This document shows, in pieces, positions 303 to 20,523 of a stretch of 22,953 nucleotides of DNA; the stretch's first letter is position 1; every line of letters starts with the position of its first letter. The notes under the pieces are model-generated. The model had not been told where the DNA came from. It worked only from the letters and a program-made list of their open reading frames with translations, and ran no database searches. The stretch covers positions 24,299 to 47,251 of IMG/VR virus record IMGVR_UViG_3300030333_003064, one strand, 5' to 3'. A program made the translations under genes and the position numbers. Source of the stretch: a virus.

Positions 303-1256
303 TTATAATATTTTAAATTCAACATCAATTTTAGAATAATCAACTCTATCGTAACCTCCGTTATTAATTACAGCGCTGTTAGGTATTTCATCAGACATTA
401 CACCTTGGTAAATATGTTCTCCAAAAAATTTATCAATATATTCAAATGCGTATATTCTTAATCCACTAGGTGATTTACCTATTAATTTAATATTCTTTTT
501 TAATCTTCTATCAGATAGTCCACCAAGCAAACTAATACCACTTGATATAGCTCCAGACCAAGCTTGGTCTTTTTGAGCTTGGGCGTTTGCAGCTGCTTGT
601 TGGGCGCTTTGGGCAGTTTGACTAGCATCCTGAAACAACATTTGCTGTTTATTTAATTCTCTTTGTTGAGCAGCTGCCGCACCTTGAGCAATTTTAGTAT
701 CAACATCTGCTGCACCTTGAGCTATCTGTTGAGCAACATCGAAATCACCTTTTGCTTCTTGCGATTGTAATCTACCAGCCTCAGCCGCAGCCTTTGCTTG
801 ATTAGCTGCTTCTTGTTGACCTATGCTAGCTGAAGATTTTTGAGCGGATAAAGCTCCTTGCTTTGCTAATGACTGAGCTAATGCTGCTATACCGCTACTA
901 CCAGCAGACCCTCTTAATCCTTCCATTATATTAGCTTGACTTTGCGCAAATTGTTGAGCTTGAAAATCAGCTTCTTGTTGATTAACAGTTAAGTCTTCCA
1001 TTGTATTTTCTAAACCTGAATATGGGTTTTGTAATCCAGAAAATTGATTTTTCATTCCTTCAAATGGGTTGCTAGTATCAACGTTTGAAAGTACATCTTT
1101 CATACGTTCTTTTTCAGCAGCTGCTTCTTTAGCGGCTCTATCTGCTTTTTTAGCGGCTTTACCAGCTTGTATACCACCATATATACCACCAACTAAACCA
1201 CCAATGGCTTTGAATATTTTTAAAGGACTTTCTGTATTTTTTTTAATATATGACAT
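303..1256 (-). CDS. Ejection-type internal virion protein with C-terminal S74 (intramolecular chaperone) domain
   Basis: This is a 317-aa protein in three parts. Residues about 12-34 hold a Gly-rich hydrophobic stretch (KIFKAIGGLVGGIYGG) that could insert into or thread a membrane. Residues about 35-245 are a very Ala/Gln-rich helical region, including an 11-residue repeat (IAQGAA at 178 and 189), as expected for a coiled-coil internal virion protein such as T7 gp14 or P22 gp7. Residues 248-317 look like a Peptidase_S74 intramolecular chaperone domain: SDRRLKKNI, then GLRIYAFEY, then YQGVMSDEIP. In this family Ser cleaves the chain with a Lys five residues later; both are present (S248, K253). 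The domain normally folds trimeric tail spikes, so its place here is unusual. The gene opens a transcription unit: a 22-bp promoter-like repeat lies 8 bases before its ATG. It could alternatively be an appendage protein. Confidence 0.75.
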   Translation of the reverse strand: MSYIKKNTESPLKIFKAIGGLVGGIYGGIQAGKAAKKADRAAKEAAAEKERMKDVLSNVDTSNPFEGMKNQFSGLQNPYSGLENTMEDLTVNQQEADFQAQQFAQSQANIMEGLRGSAGSSGIAALAQSLAKQGALSAQKSSASIGQQEAANQAKAAAEAGRLQSQEAKGDFDVAQQIAQGAADVDTKIAQGAAAAQQRELNKQQMLFQDASQTAQSAQQAAANAQAQKDQAWSGAISSGISLLGGLSDRRLKKNIKLIGKSPSGLRIYAFEYIDKFFGEHIYQGVMSDEIPNSAVINNGGYDRVDYSKIDVEFKIL

Positions 1257-1264
1257 AATTGCTT

Positions 1265-1286
1265 TTTTACTATTATATAGTTACAT
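1265..1286 (-). promoter_or_regulatory. 22-bp promoter-like repeat, copy 1
   Basis: This 22-bp stretch is identical to 11366-11387, in the same orientation. On the minus strand its core is ACTATATAATAGT, an ACTAT/ATAGT inverted repeat around ATA that includes a TATAAT-like box, followed by AAAA. It ends 8 bases before the ATG of the S74-domain gene. The sequence upstream of the block is not conserved between copies, and no Bacteroidetes TTTG or TAnnTTTG boxes are visible. I infer a phage-specific late promoter with a very short leader; an operator is the alternative. Confidence 0.6.
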
Positions 1287-1296
1287 TTTTTGCTTA

Positions 1297-1755
1297 TTAT
1301 TTACTGCTTTCGTTTATCTCTGCAGATATAGTAAATAGCTCAGCTTTTTCTTTTGAATTATTCTTTAATTGTACTTTAGCAAAGTAACCTAACAACGATG
1401 CTATATTAGCCTCATCGTCTTTTACAAAAAATGCAAAAGAACCTACTTCTGGTAGAATGGTGCTGTAATTTAACACATTTGTTTGCATTGTTAAAGTTGT
1501 TGTTTCTGTCCCATCGTCTAAAGAAGTTGTGTTGTTTATAGCGCTTAACGTTCCTAATTTTTGTAATGTTCCACCTTGGCCAACTGTAAAAAATGGCAAT
1601 GTAGAGTCTGGAGTTTGGCTATAGTTGCCATCACTATCAACAGTAGCGGTAGATTCATAATTTACTGAAGTATATGTATCAATATAACAAATGAAATCTC
1701 CAATTTGCAATGAAGTATATTGTTCTCTAGGTACTTGTATTATCCATGTAGCCAT
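1297..1755 (-). CDS. Small structural protein of the tail/neck gene cluster, function unknown
   Basis: This 152-aa protein has no membrane segment or signal peptide. It reads as mostly beta strand: an N-terminal piece (ATWIIQVPREQYTSLQIGDFICYID), a Ser/Thr-rich middle, and a C-terminal amphipathic stretch around LLGYFAKVQLKNNSKEKAEL. The C-terminal part resembles small proteins I associate with the neighbourhood of gp10-like genes in marine phages, but I cannot name a function. It follows the 515-aa gene with a 10-base gap and is the last gene of the unit starting at 11356; the promoter-like repeat for the next gene lies just downstream of its stop. The start is supported by the AATTATGGC context shared with many genes here. 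A minor tail or adaptor protein is the most likely role. Confidence 0.75.
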   Translation of the reverse strand: MATWIIQVPREQYTSLQIGDFICYIDTYTSVNYESTATVDSDGNYSQTPDSTLPFFTVGQGGTLQKLGTLSAINNTTSLDDGTETTTLTMQTNVLNYSTILPEVGSFAFFVKDDEANIASLLGYFAKVQLKNNSKEKAELFTISAEINESSK

Positions 1756-1765
1756 AATTATTTAT

Positions 1766-3313
1766 TTAAGGGGTTGTAAGTGCTGCTCCGTCTATTGATA
1801 AAAAATCTGATGAGTCCAAAGTAAACGTAACATCTGCTGTGCCAAATTTATTTAATAATATATATCCAGTCACGGTTATTACCGTTGGCGTTGTTTCATT
1901 ATTCTTTTTTACTAACACATTATTTATTGATATTATATTACCATGATTAGTTGTGCTCTGATCCCAATTAGAACTAGCATCAGTCATTGACCACGTAGGA
2001 GTAGCAGCTGTTGTAAATTTAGTTCCTGAAGTTTTAGTATAAACATAAGTAAACTTAATTCTTTCTCTTAGTTTTCCAATGTTTTTTAATTTATCAATAC
2101 TTTTGTTAGCGATTCCTTTATACACCACGGGAGTCGCTGATGTTACTTCGTAGTTTGTTCCAGCATTAGTATTAATTGTTATCGTAGGCATTATATGTTG
2201 ATTAAAAACTATTTGTGAAGATGGCGGCTGCGTTATATTAGAATTTAAAATAGTGTTTCTACCAGGATAAATATTTAAATTATAAGACTCGTTAGATGAA
2301 GTAGAAGGAAACTCTTGTGTAAACTCAAAAGTAGAATAAGGTGATTTAGCTGTTAATCCTGATAAAGTTTTATTAATTCCTCTAATTACACCAGCATCCC
2401 TATCTAAAATATCTACGTTTGTTATGCTAGTATCTATTATAGATGTATTATCACTATTTTTAAATAGTGTTAAATCAAACTCAGCACCAACATCTCCATA
2501 TATTTGTATTTTTTTATTACCGCCAACCATTGCAACGTCGGTAGGGCCAACAATAATTTGGCTTATCTCATTAGTTGTTTTATCAGCTATTGCAGCGTAA
2601 TTAATTATAACTTGAGCATTAGAAGTTAAACTAAACTCACTTACAAACATTATTTTATAATTCCAAACTTTTACCGTATCAGTTTCCCCATCTCTTCTAG
2701 TTATAGAATCTAGCAATAAAGATACAGTACCCTCAGGCATATTTACTAATTCAATAGTAGGTGGATTTATAAAGTTACATATATCAGGGGAATCATCAGC
2801 TGTTACTACTAAAGTTCCAATTTGGGCTAAAAAATCAGCCGTTACATTTGACGCAGACAAACTTGTGGTAACAGTAGTGCTACCAGTTGGCCCCGATTGA
2901 GTCACCGCTGATCCAAAGCTAGACACCACAGAACTACCATTTAAATTTACAGATGTATCGTCTATAAAATCTATCCTAAAATCTATGTATCTTTTATTTG
3001 GAACTGGCCGCGCATGACCTGTAAAAGGAACATTTATAGTATTCAGCGCCTCTGACATTTCAAATAAAATAGAAAACACAAATGACACCGTAACTGTATT
3101 ATTTATTTCGCCAGCAACCGCCGTGTCAGCAAAAGTTATACTAGAGAACTGACCAGGTAAAGTTCCAGGCGCAGAAAAATCCAAAGCAGATACTGTAAAC
3201 CCATCATTAGGAGTAATAGTAAAACTACCACCACTAATCATATTTTGACCCATAACGCTAGCGTCAGGATCTTCTGCGAAAGTAAAAGTTGATACTGTAA
3301 AATTTATTGCCAT
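1766..3313 (-). CDS. Beta-rich structural protein, probably tail-associated
   Basis: This 515-aa protein is rich in Thr, Ser, Asn and Val, with short alternating hydrophobic/polar strands throughout and little predicted helix. That is the look of a beta-sandwich or fibre-type virion protein. No enzymatic motif, signal peptide or membrane segment is visible, and I do not recognise the family. It begins MAINFTVSTFTF and starts 2 bases after the stop of the giant gp10-like gene (TAA-TT-ATG), which ties it to the tail or neck module. Likely roles are a tail appendage or receptor-contacting protein; an Ig-like accessory protein is an alternative. The frame is certain; the role is inferred from position and composition only. 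Confidence 0.8.
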   Translation of the reverse strand: MAINFTVSTFTFAEDPDASVMGQNMISGGSFTITPNDGFTVSALDFSAPGTLPGQFSSITFADTAVAGEINNTVTVSFVFSILFEMSEALNTINVPFTGHARPVPNKRYIDFRIDFIDDTSVNLNGSSVVSSFGSAVTQSGPTGSTTVTTSLSASNVTADFLAQIGTLVVTADDSPDICNFINPPTIELVNMPEGTVSLLLDSITRRDGETDTVKVWNYKIMFVSEFSLTSNAQVIINYAAIADKTTNEISQIIVGPTDVAMVGGNKKIQIYGDVGAEFDLTLFKNSDNTSIIDTSITNVDILDRDAGVIRGINKTLSGLTAKSPYSTFEFTQEFPSTSSNESYNLNIYPGRNTILNSNITQPPSSQIVFNQHIMPTITINTNAGTNYEVTSATPVVYKGIANKSIDKLKNIGKLRERIKFTYVYTKTSGTKFTTAATPTWSMTDASSNWDQSTTNHGNIISINNVLVKKNNETTPTVITVTGYILLNKFGTADVTFTLDSSDFLSIDGAALTTP

Positions 3314-3315
3314 AA

Positions 3316-6300
3316 TTATTCTGGTGTTTGTTCGTAAGTATTACCATCAGCATCTGTAGCTTGAGCTGTTGTTTCTAGTTGAGGTGTAAACCCAAGTGAT
3401 TCAGGTTCTGCTAATATAGGACCTAAACCTTGTACATTAAAACCACCTGTATCAATATCTCTTTGCGCATTTATTCCGACTGAAATTTCTTTATTATTTC
3501 CTTTAATGTAATTAAACCATTTGCCTTCTTTTTCTATAAACTCAGAAATTTGACCTTTTTGTAAACCAGTATCTATACTTACTACGCTCCACCCACTTTT
3601 TGAACTTATATTATAAAATTGGCCATCTTGCACATTTGTTAAAACTCTAGATTGAGTTCCTTCATAATTAATGGCTGAAAAAGACTTCATTGAGCTAGGA
3701 GATTCATTAAATAATACGTCTACAGTAGAAGATGTATATGCTCCATAAAAAACATTATGATTATTATCACCTTCAGATGTTTTACCAACATAGTGTTTAT
3801 ATATTTTATTTTCATTAGTAGTATAATATCTGTCTACCACACTAACACCAGATGTTGGAATAAAAGATTTAAAACTTACCCAGCCTTTTGATTTTTCATT
3901 AAAAGAAATAGTTTTATCAACAGATAACGTAGGAAACTTTGACCAGGATAGCAATGTTAAATTATACTCATCATTAATACCATCAAACGTACCTAAAATA
4001 TTAGTATAGTATTTTAGTTTTTCTCTAAAATATCCTTTCATACCAACATCTGATATAGGTGTAATTCCATTACCAGACAGTCTTAAAACAGCGCCTCTTT
4101 GCTTGTCAGTAAAATACATTCTGTAAGCGTCGGTAGCTAAAGACTCAGGATTTTTTGATATACCATAATCACCTGCAAACGGAGTCGAAGTTCCTAAAAC
4201 TCTATTAGTAGATGTTAGCTGCGCATTACCTCCAGCGTTAAATAAAACGTCTTTACCACTTGACATTACCTTTAACACTTTGTCTTCAGTAAAAACTACA
4301 ACATCATTATCTCTAGCTTTTATAGCTTGTATAGAACCGTAAGTAGTATTTAAATCTTTAGTTATTTTTTCAGCCATATTGAACTGATTTAAGCTATTTG
4401 TGCTTGATGTTGAGTTATATATTCCTGAATATATTATACTACTTGTCTTTTCTTCTTGTCCATACTCTAAAAATACAGATGAAGCTTTTATACCATTATC
4501 TATTTGAGGAGCATTAAAATCATCTCTTATTCTATCTGATTCCACACCATTACCAAACGAATAACAATTATTCCATGCTAAATTAACAGGTAGTTCATAA
4601 ACATTTGCATCTATAATAAAAGTACCTGTTACTTCTTGAAATGTGTAAAAATAAGAGTTATTAGTATTTTGTGTTAAAGATTTGTTTAAACTAAAAACAT
4701 AATTATTATTAACAATAGCCACTTGCGTGACAAAAGTTCCGGGAGCTATAAAGGTACCTTGCACCTCCATTCCAGCTGTTACAAGATTAGCGTCAGTAGT
4801 TGTTGTAGGTGTTAAAAGCGTTTGGTTGCCAGTTGAGCAAACAAAAAAATACCGATCAGAAAGCACTGGTGTTGGAGCAATTGAAGAATTATCTATTTTA
4901 GCATGGTTCATAATCCTAGACCTAGTTACTAGGCCATTATTATGCGTAAATGATACATAGTCTAAAAGAGCGGGAGATTCAACATCGCTACCACTAATAA
5001 TAGGCGTAAGATTTACATCAGATCCATTAACTGTTCTTTTAACTGTAATAGCTTTTTGCGCCGCGCTATGTACATAAGGTTCGCCTGTTAAATTAACAGA
5101 TGGCCCAGTAGGTGTTTTTAAATTAGCCCCAAACTTAGCTGATTTTTCTTTAGAGTTATAAGCTCCTACGTAGTCTACAATATTTTTTTCGTCTAATCTT
5201 AAAGGTATAGCTCTACTAGCCTCATAATATATATCTAACCCTAAGTCTTCTTTAGGTTCTGTTTCAAAAATCGCCGCACTTGATCTAATAGAATCTTCAT
5301 TGATACTTTGTGCTGATACTCTTTTTACAAACTCAATAGTTATACTGCCAAGACCATTGTGTTTTATAACACCTAAAGGATCCCAAATTCCTCTATTTAC
5401 ACCTTCGTTAAGTCTGTTTAGTTGAGAATCTAAACGTCTAAATCTAACTACTATTGAAGTTCTATATTTTAAATCATTATCAACTCCTTCCCAGTTTGAA
5501 AAATTTCTACTTTCTATTGTTATGTTTTCTGAAACTGAAGTAGAATTTGGAGGATCCGCTAAAGGATTAAATTGATCCCCTATAAAAACTTCATAAACTT
5601 CTTGATTAGGATCTTCTGCAAATCTAAATCTAGTCCCTTCTTGCTGCATCTTGGTTTTAAAGTAAGAATTAGAACCGTTAAATCCATCTGCGCCTATAAC
5701 AGATAATATCATTTGAGCATCAGTATAATTTGCATCAAAGCCGCCATTTGTAAAAGCTTTATGATCGCAGTTAATTATACCATCGTCTTGCACATCTGGA
5801 TCACCATCGTCGTCATCATCAATTATTGTTCCTTGAAAAGCTGCACTAAAAATTTCATTACCTCCGTTATCATTTAAACCAAAACCTTTACGCGCTCTTG
5901 CTGAATCAAGAAATATATCAGCGGTTCTATCAGGATTATTTTTCCATGATGTCCAAAAATTTTGTGTCGTTTCAGAATTACTTCCATCTCCTGAATATGT
6001 ACCAAAAGTACTTTCTATGTTGGCATTAGTAAAATCACCTAAAGCATCAGGATCACCATTAATATCTACGTAATCGTCCCAATTGGAAGCTTCATAATCC
6101 ATTTCAGCCGCGTAAATATTGTCATCATAAGCTGGATTTTGCGCTTTACTAGCTATGTGTGCTATTTGGTAAGAGCCCTCAACTTGCCATTCTCCTAAAG
6201 AATCTCCCAATACTCTATTTTCTAAAACGCCGTCCCTAGATATTTTTACAAAAAACTTACCATCAAATTCTGGTTTGTTTTTAATAACTTGATCTCTAAG

Positions 6301-9225
6301 TTGAATGTTGTAAGTTAGCTTACTATCTTCACCATCTGCATAATTATTAACAGACTCAATTGCTGTACCTATTGTGCTAGCATCAGGTAACTGCTGTTGT
6401 ATTTTGTTATACATAAATACATCTGACAAAACAAATGGATCTCTAATACCAAATCCATATTCACCACCATTAGCTCCACCTTTTATAACTCTAGTAATTT
6501 TTCTAAAAGGGCTATGTGCGTGGTAGAAAGTACCGTCAGTGTCTTTGTATTTACCAACTATTCTTAATAATGCATCTCCTTCAAAATCTAATCCATCTAA
6601 ATAATCAGTATTACCATCTCCATCAGGTTCAGCTGATTCTAATAAAATTCTATCAAAACCACTTTCTGAAGAAGGGTCACCGTCCACTATTATATTATTA
6701 GGCTCTGCGTCATCTTGAGTGTAGTTGCCATTGTTATCAAATGCGGCTCCACCAAACACGTGCTTAGGGGCCATTACTTCTAACGGAAAGTCTTTGTGTT
6801 CTTTTTTTATATACTCTGGAGCTTCATTTTCTATAGCTATTATTTTGTATCTAGCTTCTTCATCAATAGCTTTTTGTGCGCCATGTTCATTTTTTAATAT
6901 TAAATAATCATTTTCTTGTACTTTATTTCTATCAGCAGAATTAAAAGCAAGCCAAACGTTCTCATCGCCAGCGTCATACCACCTGTCTAATACTAAATTA
7001 TAATATTCGTTAGAGGTTTCTTTTACATAGTATTTAACGTATGACATCCAGTCAGAAGGCGTAGTATAATTGCTACCACCGTTTGTATTTGTTTGCTCCC
7101 ACTCTGGTTCTACCATAAATTTATTAGAAAATTTAGATAAACTTTTTTCAACTTTAATAGTGCTAGGAACTCTATCAACTCCAAATTGTTCATTATCTTT
7201 ATCATAACCACTTGATATAACAGGCGTTTCTCTACCAAATTTATCACCAATAACTACGCCAAGTTGGTAATCTCTAATAGATTTTATAGATTTTTTTGGC
7301 CTTGGGAAAGATACTACTTCTGATGAAATAGATGGTTTTAATCCTATAGTTTGACTTATATTATAACCCTGTGTATAGTTTCCGTATAAAATTCTATTAC
7401 CTGATATACCTTGAGCTCTAGCATACCTAGGAACGTTATCCCAAGCTCTAAGTAATTGATTAGCTTCTACAACTTTGTATATCATTTCTGATGTTATAGT
7501 AAGCTCACCCGTTGCTGACAATGGATCAAAAGAAATGTCTCCCCACTCAAAAGCATCTATTCCTCTTTTTAAAGTTTTAACAATATATACATTAGCATTA
7601 TCTGTAGTTTTCCATAATATATCTATAGCCTTAACATCTAGCGGTCTAACATAAGTATTAGGTATAAAATTTTTAACAACTATTTTTCTAGCTGTATTAG
7701 CCATGCCTTCATTAAAACCTTTTTGAGGTGCATAGTCAAAGTCACCAGGTAAAAACGCTAGTTCGGACCAAGGAGAAAAAGTAGAGCACTCATTATCTTC
7801 GTATTTATATCTATAACCAAATCTACCAAACTTTGATTCAAACAAAGGTCTTTTTATTTCTAAAACAACATTCCAATTACTAGGATTATCTTGTTCATTC
7901 AAGTCCCTATCAGCAAATATTATTTTAATTGTAGCATCGTTACCACTGTCAGATACAACTTCACCTCTTATAGCGATTGGATCATTAACGTTAGTTGCGT
8001 TAAAAGTAAAAATATCGCCTCTTTTATAATCAACAGCAGATGGAAAAGGCACAATTACTTCATCACCCGCTTGTATTACTTCATCTCCTTCAAAAAAATT
8101 ATAACCTGTAAGTGGAAACTCTATTAATGCTGGTTCTCTTTCAGAAACTTTCATTTCAATTTCAGGTGGTAAGTGTGGGGCTTTTTTTATTGTAGTAATA
8201 TTTTCTAATTTTATATCAGAACTTATATTAACAATATTATCAGGTGTAATTTGTAAATTTTCTACATCTGCCACATCAACAAGTTGTTTGCTAACAGGAT
8301 GTTCTACAAACAATTTAGTATGAGTCTTACCATCATTAATCGTTCCACTTATATTAGTCCCAGCCTCGCATCTGTCTATATTTATTTTTTTAGGCTCATG
8401 TTTTCCATCTGACCACATTAATAAATTATCTAAAATATTTATAGACGCAGACGGTATTAAATTTATAGATTCAAAAGAATCCCCTTTATAATAATCAAAC
8501 TCTAAAACTCTTTGAGGGTAAATAAACTTTAAAGCCGCGTTTGTAAAATTAAAATTAGTTGAATTAGATAAATATAATATATTACTAGTAGTATCTATTT
8601 TTGTTATTTTTCTACAATCTGTAGGTTGTGAATCATCAGGTTGTTGGCCATATATTTCCATGCCAACCCTATATTTAGATGCGTCGGCTACTGTTAGAGA
8701 GGTAATGTCGCTACTACCATCAGGTATTGGATTACTTCCAAAAACATTAGCTGCTGTATCTGTAACAGCAAACTTATCTATAAAAATAAACTTTCTAGTT
8801 AAATCTTCATTTGCTCCTTCAACGCCAACTTCAGTTATGCTATCAACCCAATGTATTTCTTCGGTTATATGATCAGGAGAAATACCATTTAGTATACCAT
8901 TAATAGGAACTGGGGATGCTGTAAAATAGTATGTTTTATTATTACCTTCATCTGCAATGCTAGCTATAATTTTAGATTTTATTGGTGCTACTTGTATATT
9001 AATACCAGCTATAGATTGAAAAGTTGTGGTAGTAGTTTCAGTAACCTCTTCGTTTCCTTGTAAATTCTGTACAACACCAACATTACCCACGCCAGTGTTA
9101 GCGTCAGCATCAGACGTTGATATCTGAATATTCATAGCATCTCTATATTCACCATTGGGAACAATTCTCTCATCGAGATCTTTGTTCATTTTAGCTTTTG
9201 AAAAATTACGTTTAATCTCTGGCAT
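3316..9225 (-). CDS. Giant P22 gp10-like phage stabilization (tail hub/needle-neck) protein
   Basis: This 1969-aa protein takes about a quarter of the window. The N-terminus (KMNKDLDERIVPNGEYRDAM, then NIQIS and a VGVVQN segment) matches what I know as the start of phage stabilization proteins of the P22 gp10 type, which close the portal after packaging and join head to tail. P22 gp10 is about 470 aa, so this protein is roughly four times longer and must carry added domains. Two acidic metal-loop-like motifs are visible: D868-D880 (DGDGNTDYLDGLD, EF-hand-like spacing) and D1136-G1149 (five Asp, then GDPDVQDDG, thrombospondin-3-like). The C-terminus is Gln/Thr-rich. It sits between a connector-type gene and a beta-rich gene, with 2-base gaps on both sides. 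The gp10 assignment rests on the N-terminus and position; it may be a combined hub, muzzle and adsorption protein. Confidence 0.8.
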   Translation of the reverse strand: MPEIKRNFSKAKMNKDLDERIVPNGEYRDAMNIQISTSDADANTGVGNVGVVQNLQGNEEVTETTTTTFQSIAGINIQVAPIKSKIIASIADEGNNKTYYFTASPVPINGILNGISPDHITEEIHWVDSITEVGVEGANEDLTRKFIFIDKFAVTDTAANVFGSNPIPDGSSDITSLTVADASKYRVGMEIYGQQPDDSQPTDCRKITKIDTTSNILYLSNSTNFNFTNAALKFIYPQRVLEFDYYKGDSFESINLIPSASINILDNLLMWSDGKHEPKKINIDRCEAGTNISGTINDGKTHTKLFVEHPVSKQLVDVADVENLQITPDNIVNISSDIKLENITTIKKAPHLPPEIEMKVSEREPALIEFPLTGYNFFEGDEVIQAGDEVIVPFPSAVDYKRGDIFTFNATNVNDPIAIRGEVVSDSGNDATIKIIFADRDLNEQDNPSNWNVVLEIKRPLFESKFGRFGYRYKYEDNECSTFSPWSELAFLPGDFDYAPQKGFNEGMANTARKIVVKNFIPNTYVRPLDVKAIDILWKTTDNANVYIVKTLKRGIDAFEWGDISFDPLSATGELTITSEMIYKVVEANQLLRAWDNVPRYARAQGISGNRILYGNYTQGYNISQTIGLKPSISSEVVSFPRPKKSIKSIRDYQLGVVIGDKFGRETPVISSGYDKDNEQFGVDRVPSTIKVEKSLSKFSNKFMVEPEWEQTNTNGGSNYTTPSDWMSYVKYYVKETSNEYYNLVLDRWYDAGDENVWLAFNSADRNKVQENDYLILKNEHGAQKAIDEEARYKIIAIENEAPEYIKKEHKDFPLEVMAPKHVFGGAAFDNNGNYTQDDAEPNNIIVDGDPSSESGFDRILLESAEPDGDGNTDYLDGLDFEGDALLRIVGKYKDTDGTFYHAHSPFRKITRVIKGGANGGEYGFGIRDPFVLSDVFMYNKIQQQLPDASTIGTAIESVNNYADGEDSKLTYNIQLRDQVIKNKPEFDGKFFVKISRDGVLENRVLGDSLGEWQVEGSYQIAHIASKAQNPAYDDNIYAAEMDYEASNWDDYVDINGDPDALGDFTNANIESTFGTYSGDGSNSETTQNFWTSWKNNPDRTADIFLDSARARKGFGLNDNGGNEIFSAAFQGTIIDDDDDGDPDVQDDGIINCDHKAFTNGGFDANYTDAQMILSVIGADGFNGSNSYFKTKMQQEGTRFRFAEDPNQEVYEVFIGDQFNPLADPPNSTSVSENITIESRNFSNWEGVDNDLKYRTSIVVRFRRLDSQLNRLNEGVNRGIWDPLGVIKHNGLGSITIEFVKRVSAQSINEDSIRSSAAIFETEPKEDLGLDIYYEASRAIPLRLDEKNIVDYVGAYNSKEKSAKFGANLKTPTGPSVNLTGEPYVHSAAQKAITVKRTVNGSDVNLTPIISGSDVESPALLDYVSFTHNNGLVTRSRIMNHAKIDNSSIAPTPVLSDRYFFVCSTGNQTLLTPTTTTDANLVTAGMEVQGTFIAPGTFVTQVAIVNNNYVFSLNKSLTQNTNNSYFYTFQEVTGTFIIDANVYELPVNLAWNNCYSFGNGVESDRIRDDFNAPQIDNGIKASSVFLEYGQEEKTSSIIYSGIYNSTSSTNSLNQFNMAEKITKDLNTTYGSIQAIKARDNDVVVFTEDKVLKVMSSGKDVLFNAGGNAQLTSTNRVLGTSTPFAGDYGISKNPESLATDAYRMYFTDKQRGAVLRLSGNGITPISDVGMKGYFREKLKYYTNILGTFDGINDEYNLTLLSWSKFPTLSVDKTISFNEKSKGWVSFKSFIPTSGVSVVDRYYTTNENKIYKHYVGKTSEGDNNHNVFYGAYTSSTVDVLFNESPSSMKSFSAINYEGTQSRVLTNVQDGQFYNISSKSGWSVVSIDTGLQKGQISEFIEKEGKWFNYIKGNNKEISVGINAQRDIDTGGFNVQGLGPILAEPESLGFTPQLETTAQATDADGNTYEQTPE

Positions 9226-9227
9226 AG

Positions 9228-10643
9228 CTATTTAATTTGCTTACTCATGCCTTTTAGCACTTGAGTAAATTCTTCAATTTTAATATTTGATAATCTTATT
9301 TTTGCTTTTCTAGTTTCAGCAAACTTTTCTTTTTTAAATCTTTGAACTAAATATTCAGGTATATTAGACCTTCCAGATAGTATGCCGTACATAATCCACT
9401 TATAACAAGCTTCTTCACAAAATTTATGTATAACCATTTCTGAGTCTGTACCTAAACCATCACTTACATATTTTAATATTATAGTATCACCAGCCAATGA
9501 GGATCCAAAGTGTATATAACCTCTAAGATTATCTATATAAAAAGTGCCATTAGACTGTGCGTACTGTGGGTCTAATCCATATCTTCTACCTCTATAATCT
9601 ATTTCTATATCCGTAGAATCATCAGAGTCAGGATCTGATTGCGTAGTATCAGAATAATTATCTAACGTGTTGCTAGGTACTTGCTCCACTAAACTAAATG
9701 TTGATGAATCTCCTGAAGCATTTGAAAATGCCCATGAGTTGTTATCAGCGGTTGAAGTAGCAATTAAAGCTTCGGGTGACGTTATATGTGTAGACGATAC
9801 TGTGCCAATAGCCATTGAAGCTGGAAAAAATCCTATTTGCTGATTTGGTCCGCCTGGAACGTAAAAAGCCGGCTCAGTACCTCCATCAAACTTATTAACA
9901 ATAGTTAAAAGATCACCAACTATTTCTGTTGTAAATCTTTTACTAGTATCTATAGCTGTTTTTAAAGCATTTAATAATTGCCCTCTATTCATACTAGTAG
10001 TGTACGCAACTTCAAAACGAGGGCCTGGTAAACTACCTGCAGGATTAGCTCCATCATTAATATCGCCGTCAGAATTAAATATAAAAAACATATTTTGCTC
10101 TGCCCCTGCTTCATCTAAATAAGATAAACTTAAATAATCTCCGTCTGCAATTCTAGCTCCAGCTAATGTAGTCTCTGTAGAGCCATCTGGATTTGTTTCA
10201 ACTAAATTACCAGGAACTCTCATTTCGTATTTTCTTTTTTGACTAGTAGGATCTGTAGTATAAGTTCCATCAGCCGTTTGAGTTATAGCAAATGGATTAC
10301 AAGTTTTACTAGTTGGATATAAAACTCTTTCAGTACCATCACTTCCTAATGCAGATAGTTTAATATAATTAACGTAATCGTGAGGTAATACCATCTTAAG
10401 CGTGTTAGGTACCTCTATTTCTTGTGATTTAAAAGAACGTAAAACATCATATGATAACTCTTGTAATGCTCGCATAGCATGAAATTGAACATCAGTTCTA
10501 TTTACTTTAGTTATTATTTTATTTTCACCTACGTAAATATACATAAAGTTATTTATAATACTATCAAGACTTACGAATTGATATGTACCAAAATCGCTAC
10601 CTTGATAATATGCAGCTTGAGTTGTTGATCCTAGTAATCCCAT
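9228..10643 (-). CDS. Connector/ring-type head-tail structural protein
   Basis: This 471-aa protein has a conserved-looking N-terminal helical part (LDSIINNFMYIYVGENKIITKVNRTDVQFHAMRALQEL in pieces, residues about 27-65) and a C-terminal helical part (about 405-471, with KFCEEACYKWIMYGILSG and RFKKEKFAETRKAKIRLSN). Between them lies a long Thr/Ser/Asp-rich beta region with YRGRRYGLDPQYAQSNGTFY near 350-370. This arrangement, and position between the first connector gene and the gp10-like gene, fit the ring or adaptor proteins that stack under the portal in short-tailed phages. No enzyme motif is present. It starts 2 bases after the upstream stop (TAA-TT-ATG) and ends in TAG, 2 bases before the next ATG. 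The structural role is likely; the exact ring is not resolvable from sequence alone. Confidence 0.75.
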   Translation of the reverse strand: MGLLGSTTQAAYYQGSDFGTYQFVSLDSIINNFMYIYVGENKIITKVNRTDVQFHAMRALQELSYDVLRSFKSQEIEVPNTLKMVLPHDYVNYIKLSALGSDGTERVLYPTSKTCNPFAITQTADGTYTTDPTSQKRKYEMRVPGNLVETNPDGSTETTLAGARIADGDYLSLSYLDEAGAEQNMFFIFNSDGDINDGANPAGSLPGPRFEVAYTTSMNRGQLLNALKTAIDTSKRFTTEIVGDLLTIVNKFDGGTEPAFYVPGGPNQQIGFFPASMAIGTVSSTHITSPEALIATSTADNNSWAFSNASGDSSTFSLVEQVPSNTLDNYSDTTQSDPDSDDSTDIEIDYRGRRYGLDPQYAQSNGTFYIDNLRGYIHFGSSLAGDTIILKYVSDGLGTDSEMVIHKFCEEACYKWIMYGILSGRSNIPEYLVQRFKKEKFAETRKAKIRLSNIKIEEFTQVLKGMSKQIK

Positions 10644-10645
10644 AA

Positions 10646-11356
10646 TTAACTATTTTGTTCTTGGTTAGTCATTTGTATAGCGTTTGCCCCAACTTGACCT
10701 ATGTCTTGCTGTTTTGTTACAACGCCAGATAACATTAATATTTTTGAAACTAATGGCTCTTCTTCAACTTCTAGTAATTCAAAATTTTGAGCGTCACTAG
10801 CCCCTGAGTTATAAAGAGCCTTTTCAGCAACAATTACGTAGGTCCAATTTGGAGCCGTTGGCTTTTTATAATAAGTAACAGTGCAGCTAGTGCTATTACC
10901 TGGATCTGGCGTTATTCTAATTGTTGTAGATGAAACTCTAGTAAATATAGGTCTTGACGTTTTAGGATATAATACTGATCCAGTTTCACCAAGAGAAGTA
11001 ATATAATGTTCTTCTTTTTTATTTACCTCTGTAGCAAGATTAATTCCTACTTTTACAATATCTAATTTATACAAATCTGTTGGAAGTGTCATTATACCAC
11101 TAGAAATGTTAGTGTTTGTTTCTGATTTTAAGAAAGGAGATAATTTAGCTTCTAGCATTTCTAAAGTATCTGTATGTGTATCATCATCTTTTGGTTTAGC
11201 GCTAGAGTTTCTAGATTTGTGAAAGTAAGCTTCATATATTTCATTTTGAGCTCTATCTGCTAATAGATTAAATTCTTGTGGTGTTAAATAACCTCTTTGC
11301 TCTTTATTAAGCAAGGCTAAAACTTTTTGATATACGCTGTTTATATTTACTGCCAT
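10646..11356 (-). CDS. First connector/adaptor protein of the head-tail joint
   Basis: This 236-aa protein starts MAVNINSVYQKVLALLNKEQ and continues RGYLTPQEFNLLADRAQNEI, a pattern I associate with small virion adaptor proteins in marine Bacteroidetes phages. The first 65 residues look helical and the remainder beta-rich (TIRITPDPGNSTSCTVTYYKKP, residues about 146-167). It opens the tail/neck transcription unit: a terminator closes the previous gene, and the 22-bp promoter-like repeat lies 9 bases before this ATG. The leader ACAAAATGGC contains no Shine-Dalgarno sequence. Size, position after the capsid genes and position before a larger connector gene suggest it docks on the portal (gp4/gp11-like role). 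That function is inferred; the gene itself is clear. Confidence 0.75.
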   Translation of the reverse strand: MAVNINSVYQKVLALLNKEQRGYLTPQEFNLLADRAQNEIYEAYFHKSRNSSAKPKDDDTHTDTLEMLEAKLSPFLKSETNTNISSGIMTLPTDLYKLDIVKVGINLATEVNKKEEHYITSLGETGSVLYPKTSRPIFTRVSSTTIRITPDPGNSTSCTVTYYKKPTAPNWTYVIVAEKALYNSGASDAQNFELLEVEEEPLVSKILMLSGVVTKQQDIGQVGANAIQMTNQEQNS

Positions 11357-11365
11357 TTTGTTTTA

Positions 11366-11387
11366 TTTTACTATTATATAGTTACAT
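11366..11387 (-). promoter_or_regulatory. 22-bp promoter-like repeat, copy 2
   Basis: This block is identical over 22 bp to 1265-1286 and ends 9 bases before the ATG of the 236-aa connector gene. It sits just downstream of the hairpin terminator at 11410-11444, the expected place for a new promoter. The minus-strand core is ACTATATAATAGT, followed by AAAA. If the TATAAT box acts as a -10 element, transcription would start only about 10 bases before the ATG. Confidence 0.6.
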
Positions 11388-11409
11388 AATAAAGTGGAAG
11401 GTTAGCCCC

Positions 11410-11444
11410 TAAATAAAAATAGCCACCCGTAATGAGTGGCTATT
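11410..11444 (-). terminator. Rho-independent terminator after the 283-aa gene
   Basis: On the minus strand, AATAGCCACTC (11444-11434) pairs with GGGTGGCTATT (11428-11418) in an 11-bp stem with one G-T pair and the 5-base loop ATTAC. A run TTTATTTA follows. It lies 19 bases beyond the stop of the 283-aa gene and before the promoter-like repeat, so it separates two transcription units. The plus-strand downstream side lacks a good T run, so it should act mainly on the minus strand. Confidence 0.85.
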
Positions 11445-12315: not shown

Positions 12316-12337
12316 AATATAATATAATAAAAAATTA

Positions 12338-12371
12338 ATAAAAATAGAGGCAGCAAAAAGCTGCCCCTATT
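12338..12371 (-). terminator. Rho-independent terminator after the major capsid gene
   Basis: On the minus strand AATAGGGGCAGC (12371-12360) pairs with GCTGCCTCTATT (12354-12343) in a 12-bp stem with one G-T pair and a 5-base T loop. It is followed by a T-rich tail (TTTATTAATTTTTT). It begins 10 bases past the capsid stop codon. Its position suggests partial termination that keeps capsid mRNA abundant and protects its 3' end, while some read-through feeds the next gene. Confidence 0.85.
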
Positions 12372-12381
12372 AAAATAAATA

Positions 12382-19731: not shown

Positions 19732-20000
19732 TTTGATCTACCTTCTGCAAAACCTTTAAACTTAACTTCTTTCTTTTCTTCAACTTTACCTTCAAGCATA
19801 TTTTCTTCTTCATTTATACGATTCAGTATTTCAAAAGCATCGAATATAGCTAACTTTTTTGTAGCTGCGGCATTTTTTAATCTATCAGCTGATATATCAT
19901 CGTCACTATCAACTATAGGTTCTTTGGCAACTTTAATAAGTTCTTCAACTGCCTTTTGCCCAGCTTGGATTATATTCTTCTTCGTTTCCTTGATATTCAT
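19728..20000 (-). CDS. Small helical protein before the terminase; candidate small terminase
   Basis: This 90-aa protein is charged and probably all helical: NIIQAGQKAVEELIKVAKEP (9-28), a DSDDD acidic turn, then ADRLKNAAATKKLAIFDAFE (38-57) and a Glu-rich end. It overlaps the GroES-like gene by 56 bases and the terminase by 4 bases (ATGA). The start at 20000 is the only ATG that gives most of the protein, since the next Met is residue 68. A small helical protein immediately upstream of terL is the classical place for a small terminase subunit, which binds the packaging site. No helix-turn-helix can be confirmed by eye, so the assignment is inference from position and size. Confidence 0.65.
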   Translation of the reverse strand: MNIKETKKNIIQAGQKAVEELIKVAKEPIVDSDDDISADRLKNAAATKKLAIFDAFEILNRINEEENMLEGKVEEKKEVKFKGFAEGRSK

Positions 20001-20523
20001 ATTTAATTGTAATAAATTTATTCATAACCCTATATAATCTTTCTCCATTAACTATAAACTCGTACTCCATACTAGGCATAAAACCAACTAGCTCTTGCTT
20101 ATTAAAAGTTCCATCAGAATATTTTATAATACCCATCAATGGCCTTTCTTTTTCTAAATTATATTTACTAATAGACTTTAATGGTTTAACAAAGCTATAA
20201 CCAGGCATAGCTTTATTATTATATAAATATATTTGATCTTCTGATATTATATATTTATTTTCTTTCCAGTACGATCTACTATTTTTTTCTCTACCTTTAA
20301 CATCATGCCATCTTCTAAATACGTTATGATGTACTATCACTTCATCACCTATATTTACAGGTGATTGAAATAATAGCGGAGTAGCGATAACTTTTGCGCG
20401 TCTATTTATATATTGATGATTAAATATTTCAGTGTTTAGTATTAACTCTTTGTTATCGACTCGTACACTGTTATTATAGCGATCACCAATAGGGCTGATA
20501 ATAAAATCTTTGTAAGCATTCAT
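19945..20523 (-). CDS. Tandem GroES-like (co-chaperonin) protein
   Basis: This 192-aa protein reads as two GroES-type beta barrels. Barrel 1 (about 6-101): FIISPIGDR (compare GroES IRPLxDR), a hydrophobic LIL at 27-29 where GroES carries its GroEL-binding mobile-loop tripeptide, RAKVIATP (42-49), VNIGDEVIVHHN (56-67, compare VKVGDxV), and the closing strand KYIISEDQIYLY. Barrel 2 (about 110-175): SFVKPLKS, PLMGIIKY, a short loop and RLYRVMNKFITIKY, without a clear mobile loop. Phage co-chaperonins such as T4 gp31 help the host GroEL fold the capsid protein, and this gene sits in the head-gene operon, so the same role is plausible. The alignment was done by eye. It starts at a 1-base overlap (TAATG) with the upstream gene. 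Alternative: another small-barrel structural protein. Confidence 0.6.
   Translation of the reverse strand: MNAYKDFIISPIGDRYNNSVRVDNKELILNTEIFNHQYINRRAKVIATPLLFQSPVNIGDEVIVHHNVFRRWHDVKGREKNSRSYWKENKYIISEDQIYLYNNKAMPGYSFVKPLKSISKYNLEKERPLMGIIKYSDGTFNKQELVGFMPSMEYEFIVNGERLYRVMNKFITIKYEYQGNEEEYNPSWAKGS

Follow-up and report, generated by a model that had tools for sequence, protein, structure and literature searches.

The stretch of DNA analysed here (the window, 22,953 bases) is the final part of a 47,251-base virus record, and its genes are structural by PHROGs, with TerL, portal and virion proteins among them. A GroES-type protein is encoded near TerL (19945-20523). A GroEL-type chaperonin is encoded by the relative G031 (L216:10308-11873, plus strand; Cpn60, 1.7e-54). 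The ribonucleotide reductase gene of G000 (L121:1479-3307, plus strand) is split into two overlapping frames of 391 and 246 aa, which may be genuine or an artefact of assembly; its counterpart in G031 is a single 621-aa frame with ribonucleotide reductase matches.

Two identical copies of a 22-mer, ATGTAACTATATAATAGTAAAA, lie on the minus strand of the window, one 9 nt upstream of the ATG of a 236-aa virion structural protein (site A) and one 8 nt upstream of that of a 317-aa virion structural protein (site B; Table 1). No further copy with up to three mismatches was found in the window, none arose in 100 dinucleotide shuffles of it, and the 22-mer is present only twice in the whole record. 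A previous sequence-only reading had described these blocks as identical, oriented alike and close to an ATG, with one of them directly after a terminator; all of this was confirmed, the site A copy being preceded by a terminator-like hairpin.

Table 1. Features of sites A and B in the window, and one example of the early motif found in relatives.
Feature	Position	Strand	Remark
Site A, candidate -35 box CTAACC	11400..11405	minus	20 nt 5' of GTAAC, like GTAAAT at B and D
Site A, extended -10 box GTAACTATA	11377..11385	minus	invariant, 36/36 element-bearing orthologous gaps
Site A, 22-mer	11366..11387	minus	
Site A, predicted transcription start (+/-2 nt)	11369..11370	minus	inferred from -35/-10 geometry
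Terminator-like hairpin AATAGCCACTCATTACGGGTGGCTATT + TTTATTT, end of upstream unit	11418..11444	minus	
First gene of unit A, 236-aa virion structural protein, PHROG_14543	10646..11356	minus	
Site B, -35 box GTAAAT	1299..1304	minus	overlaps AAA-TAA end of upstream gene
Site B, extended -10 box GTAACTATA	1276..1284	minus	
Site B, 22-mer	1265..1286	minus	
Site B, predicted transcription start (+/-2 nt)	1268..1269	minus	inferred from -35/-10 geometry
First gene of unit B, 317-aa virion structural protein, PHROG_6121	303..1256	minus	
Three-box motif, example	L221:15241-15259 (G040 35241)	plus	

Relatives were first gathered by scanning viral contigs with a 15-mer of the block, and unrelated contigs were removed by tblastn to the window proteins. 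Many of the relatives carry the block 5' of the same two genes. Nearly all have exactly two strong copies on the same strand about 10 kb apart (30 whole records scanned). To avoid selection based on the block, a second set was fetched with the 236-aa protein alone. The block was found in the gap before this gene in 36 of 41 relatives, and the five without it are the most distant ones (at most 43% identity). GTAA[C/T]TATA was also present in the gap of every locus of the 317-aa gene that matched from residue 1. Among the relatives, those with a name are Flavobacterium phage elemo, Maribacter phage Panino, the uncultured MW202828 and Cellulophaga phages including phi18:3.

The two sites vary among relatives (ACTAT-ATA/AAT/ATT/A-ATAGT and ACTATAATAGAGT), and therefore neither the position of TATAAT nor the spacing of the palindrome is fixed. 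By this comparison, the conserved -10 element is GTAA[C/T]TATA and not TATAAT. The inverted arms and TATAAT box pointed out earlier do exist at sites A and B, but when more sites are compared, neither the ACTAT/ATAGT dyad nor TATAAT proves to be conserved.

A further site, D, is located in relatives directly after a gene for a sigma factor and before an ERF recombinase gene. Most of 67 loci have GTAATTATA there, or a sequence close to it; a regular expression for the core matched 60 of these sigma loci and failed at seven. When 53 unique loci were aligned, the information peaked at positions -20 to -15 (GTAAAT) and 0 to +8 (GTAATTATA), with about 10 uninformative positions in between. GTAAA stood at offset -20 in 27 of the 53 loci and at any other offset in two at most. 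Partner boxes occur at the same distance in the window, 20 nt upstream of GTAAYTATA (GTAAAT at B and CTAACC at A). In sigma70 numbering, GTAAAT would span -35 to -30 and A[C/T]TATA -12 to -7, the two being separated by 17 bp, which is the layout of a sigma70-type bipartite promoter with two boxes at a near-constant spacing of about 17 bp. The earlier description of a single block lacking a -35 partner is thus wrong, as the layout is bipartite with a fixed 14-nt/17-bp spacing; the flanks of the two blocks, moreover, are not wholly different, since both contain a partner box at equal upstream offset. The site A box deviates from GTAAAT, and CTAA[C/T]C is retained across the orthologous gaps, while the deeper relative G052 has GTAACT in its place. 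The entire spacer of site A is conserved as well, more than a plain -35/-10 promoter would require. With these -35 boxes and an unconserved TATAAT position, the sites are not of the E. coli TTGACA/TATAAT type; a scan of the window for E. coli-type promoters gave an uninformative 64 matches compared with 55 expected.

This geometry places the predicted transcription starts at about 11370 and 1269, with leaders of about 12-14 nt. The mRNAs would consequently be short-leadered and not leaderless, which modifies the near-leaderless mRNA suggested by the sequence-only reading. At 13 of the 53 site-D promoters, the ATG follows exactly 5 nt after GTAATTATA, which would imply leaderless mRNA at these loci of relatives.

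The pattern TAAMY-N14-GTAAYTATA yielded 23 matches in 27 sigma-bearing genomes, and the reversed pattern yielded none. A profile trained on the window-clade copies of A, B and D gave two to four matches of at least 17.5 bits per window-clade genome, counts that are partly circular, compared with means of 0.00-0.23 in Markov controls; no match reached this threshold in elemo and MW202828. With the exception of one (site E of G039), the window-clade matches are intergenic and precede a gene start. The scan recovered A, B and D and, at the late strand's head, an additional site E, some copies of which are 40-68 nt away from the following start. Independent of the training are site E, the more distant genomes and a weaker site, C. 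Several of the distant sigma-bearing genomes have only a site-D copy or none at the 17.5-bit threshold. Site C is a degenerate copy, GTAATAATAGTATAG, outside the window (G000 12467, minus strand), right after the stop of a 3,687-aa gene, and has a like form in G002, G031 and G039. The giant protein encoded there (G000 12472-23535, minus strand) has a kinase/HAD-like segment with a weak match to the polynucleotide kinase family, and Cys/His-rich repeats at its C-terminus.

The record of the window phage ends before the region of the sigma gene, which is known from relatives that reach the replication half. Their 251-aa protein matches Pfam Sigma70_r4 above the cut-off (5.6e-7) and sigma70 region 2 just under it (4.2e-5; 23.7 bits, cut-off 24.0), so that both regions of the sigma70 family are represented. 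All 55 aligned members match the sigma factor family PHROG_351, and a profile search of the PDB returned SigA, RpoD and FliA chains. In the AlphaFold model (pLDDT 79.8, pTM 0.47), the helical domains are confident and the linkers are not. Foldseek found sigmaA/RpoD chains as its best matches with a probability of 1.00 and TM-scores of about 0.3; such low scores are expected if the domain arrangement is not fixed. Of the window-clade records, the four that include the neighbouring ERF gene (G001, G031, G039 and G040) all have the sigma gene, but it is missing from every one of the four complete outgroup genomes (those of elemo, MW202828, Panino and phi18:3). At least 110 IMG/VR stretches encode the protein, many of them on contigs of 60-69 kb. 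Its relatives also occur in Saprospiraceae and Flavobacteriaceae MAG contigs, by which the hosts are probably Bacteroidota, although Aliivibrio and Halieaceae bins, perhaps misbinned, were matched as well. Among named phages, the matches are distant and of cyanophage type only. The nearest are the sigmas of Microcystis phage MaAM05 and cyanophage KBS-S-2A (E values of 1e-5 and 2e-3), which differ in showing only 25-30% identity and in belonging to phages of cyanobacterial hosts. Literature searches on Cellulophaga and Flavobacterium phages returned nothing relevant on either their sigma factors or their promoters.

The outgroups lacking the sigma gene have a different sequence at the orthologous positions. 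The gap before the 236-aa ortholog contains TATCTTTG in elemo, MW202828 and Panino and TAACTTTG in phi18:3, and site B of MW202828 and phi18:3 likewise carries one or the other. These gaps contain a terminator and TAnnTTTG, which is the -7 box read by the primary sigma of Bacteroidota (promoter TTTG/TANNTTTG; PMC6847099). The window clade shares with elemo and MW202828 the same gaps, the same structural genes and the order of terminator and promoter; in contrast to them, it lacks TAnnTTTG at sites A and B and has GTAAAT-N14-GTAA[C/T]TATA instead. The gaps are promoter positions at which the window clade uses a different sequence. Across whole genomes, intergenic host-type TAhhTTTG boxes number 13 in elemo, 11 in MW202828 and 0-1 per sigma-bearing genome. 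A gap of the window before a 283-aa gene (12316-12381) has a strong terminator (12371-12343, minus strand) and no GTAA[C/T]TATA; the matching gap of elemo has a terminator and TATCTTTG.

Taken together, the blocks at sites A and B are likely to be the -10 halves of bipartite, phage-specific sigma70-type late promoters read by the host RNA polymerase with the phage-encoded sigma. Their conserved position, the promoter boxes in the orthologous gaps of the outgroups and the phage sigma strongly support the phage-specific late promoter near the ATG that the sequence-only reading had put forward, and its interpretation as a whole is partly supported. Each promoter would comprise a -35 box GTAAAT (CTAACC at A), 14 nt and GTAA[C/T]TATA, with a spacer of 17 bp should A[C/T]TATA be the -10 hexamer, and A and B would start two late structural transcription units. 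The sigma gene lies within the early unit of close relatives, and early transcription would supply the sigma. On the host core polymerase, this sigma would then activate D for recombination and replication, E at the front of the late strand, and A, B and C, redirecting the host enzyme to middle and late promoters. The sites and the sigma gene co-occur in one lineage, and it is from this co-occurrence, which shared descent alone could yield, that we infer the link between them; the assigned timing is likewise a prediction.

The early strand of the sigma-bearing genomes carries a different motif, the rigid ACAAA-n3-AATACG-n10-AGATAATA, with 46 unique copies. It precedes many early genes in G031, G040, G001, G039 and G002 (L216-L228), is absent from elemo and MW202828, and is a candidate early promoter. 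Host-type promoters are nearly absent from the sigma-bearing group (L212-L228, L309-L348), although its hosts are probably Bacteroidota. We tentatively consider, at well below even chances, that this widespread uncultured group has left the host promoter language, with the early motif read by an unrecognised and possibly virion-delivered factor and the middle/late class by the phage's own sigma. If so, no phage gene would depend on the host primary sigma.

Alternatively, the host RNA polymerase could read sites A and B with a primary or alternative host sigma, the phage sigma serving other promoters. The promoter position of the sites is secure in either case, and a Bacteroidota host, to which the Saprospiraceae and Flavobacteriaceae matches point, would have its own set of sigmas. 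However, the primary Bacteroidota promoter is absent from the element, and TAnnTTTG is kept in the same gap by the sigma-less relatives but not by the sigma-bearing ones, which makes this explanation rather unlikely.

The palindrome at sites A and B could also be read as an N4-like hairpin promoter of a virion RNA polymerase, with a 5-bp stem (ACTAT/ATAGT) and a 3-nt loop. The geometry at the two sites is exact, the loop varies (ATA/AAT/ATT) between constant arms, and a giant protein of about 3,700 residues is encoded by the phage. However, DNA folding gave only a weak stem (-1.4 kcal/mol) and none at site D (0 kcal/mol), and some site-B copies have a 1-nt centre. The G:C loop-closing pair that N4 promoters require (PMC4496689) counts against it as well, and a profile search of the giant protein against the PDB found no RNA polymerase and only a chance match to a designed protein. 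This candidate was rejected on the basis of DNA folding and the site-D sequences, and we regard it as very improbable.

The same dyad could be a repressor or activator site overlapping the promoter, as in the built-in operator proposed by the sequence-only reading, and the conserved spacer of site A could hold a second protein. However, only sites A and B have the palindrome, which is not kept at C, D, E and in deeper relatives, all of which keep GTAA[C/T]TATA and the -35 box; the operator was rejected because of this lack of conservation, and is highly improbable. We give almost no credence to an RNA-level signal for mRNA processing or translation start in place of a promoter, for although sites A and B stand at a short, fixed distance from the ATG and have no Shine-Dalgarno-like sequence, a strong terminator precedes site A, the -35 partner lies upstream at fixed spacing, some site-E copies are further from the next start and promoter boxes occupy this gap in the outgroups.

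The promoters proposed here, read by a phage sigma, have counterparts in other phages. Gp55 of phage T4 has a role as a sigma in late transcription (PMC5780444). As in T4 (TATAAATA promoters), a phage sigma-family protein would give the host RNA polymerase a new late specificity. The late promoters of T4 consist of a -10 box only, whereas the sites described here have a -35 box at fixed spacing, the box GTAA[C/T]TATA and a sigma matching both region 2 and region 4 models; the T4 combination of an TATAAATA -10 box without a -35 was thus not found at them. Bacillus phage SPO1 uses gp28 and gp33/gp34 in a middle/late sigma cascade. The resemblance to SPO1 lies in bipartite -35/-10 promoters and a phage sigma from the early unit, but the box sequences differ, the phage is unrelated and the host here is of Bacteroidota type.

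From these results, a transcription map can be predicted for a large group of podovirus-like phages that are uncultured, and a precise link is proposed between a phage sigma and its promoters. In Bacteroidota, in which promoters of other bacteria generally fail, the boxes could be developed into an orthogonal expression system. A sigma of its own would let the virus take over the bacterial transcription machine, and the host-type boxes that sigma-less relatives have in the same gaps would make a switch of promoter class visible in evolution.
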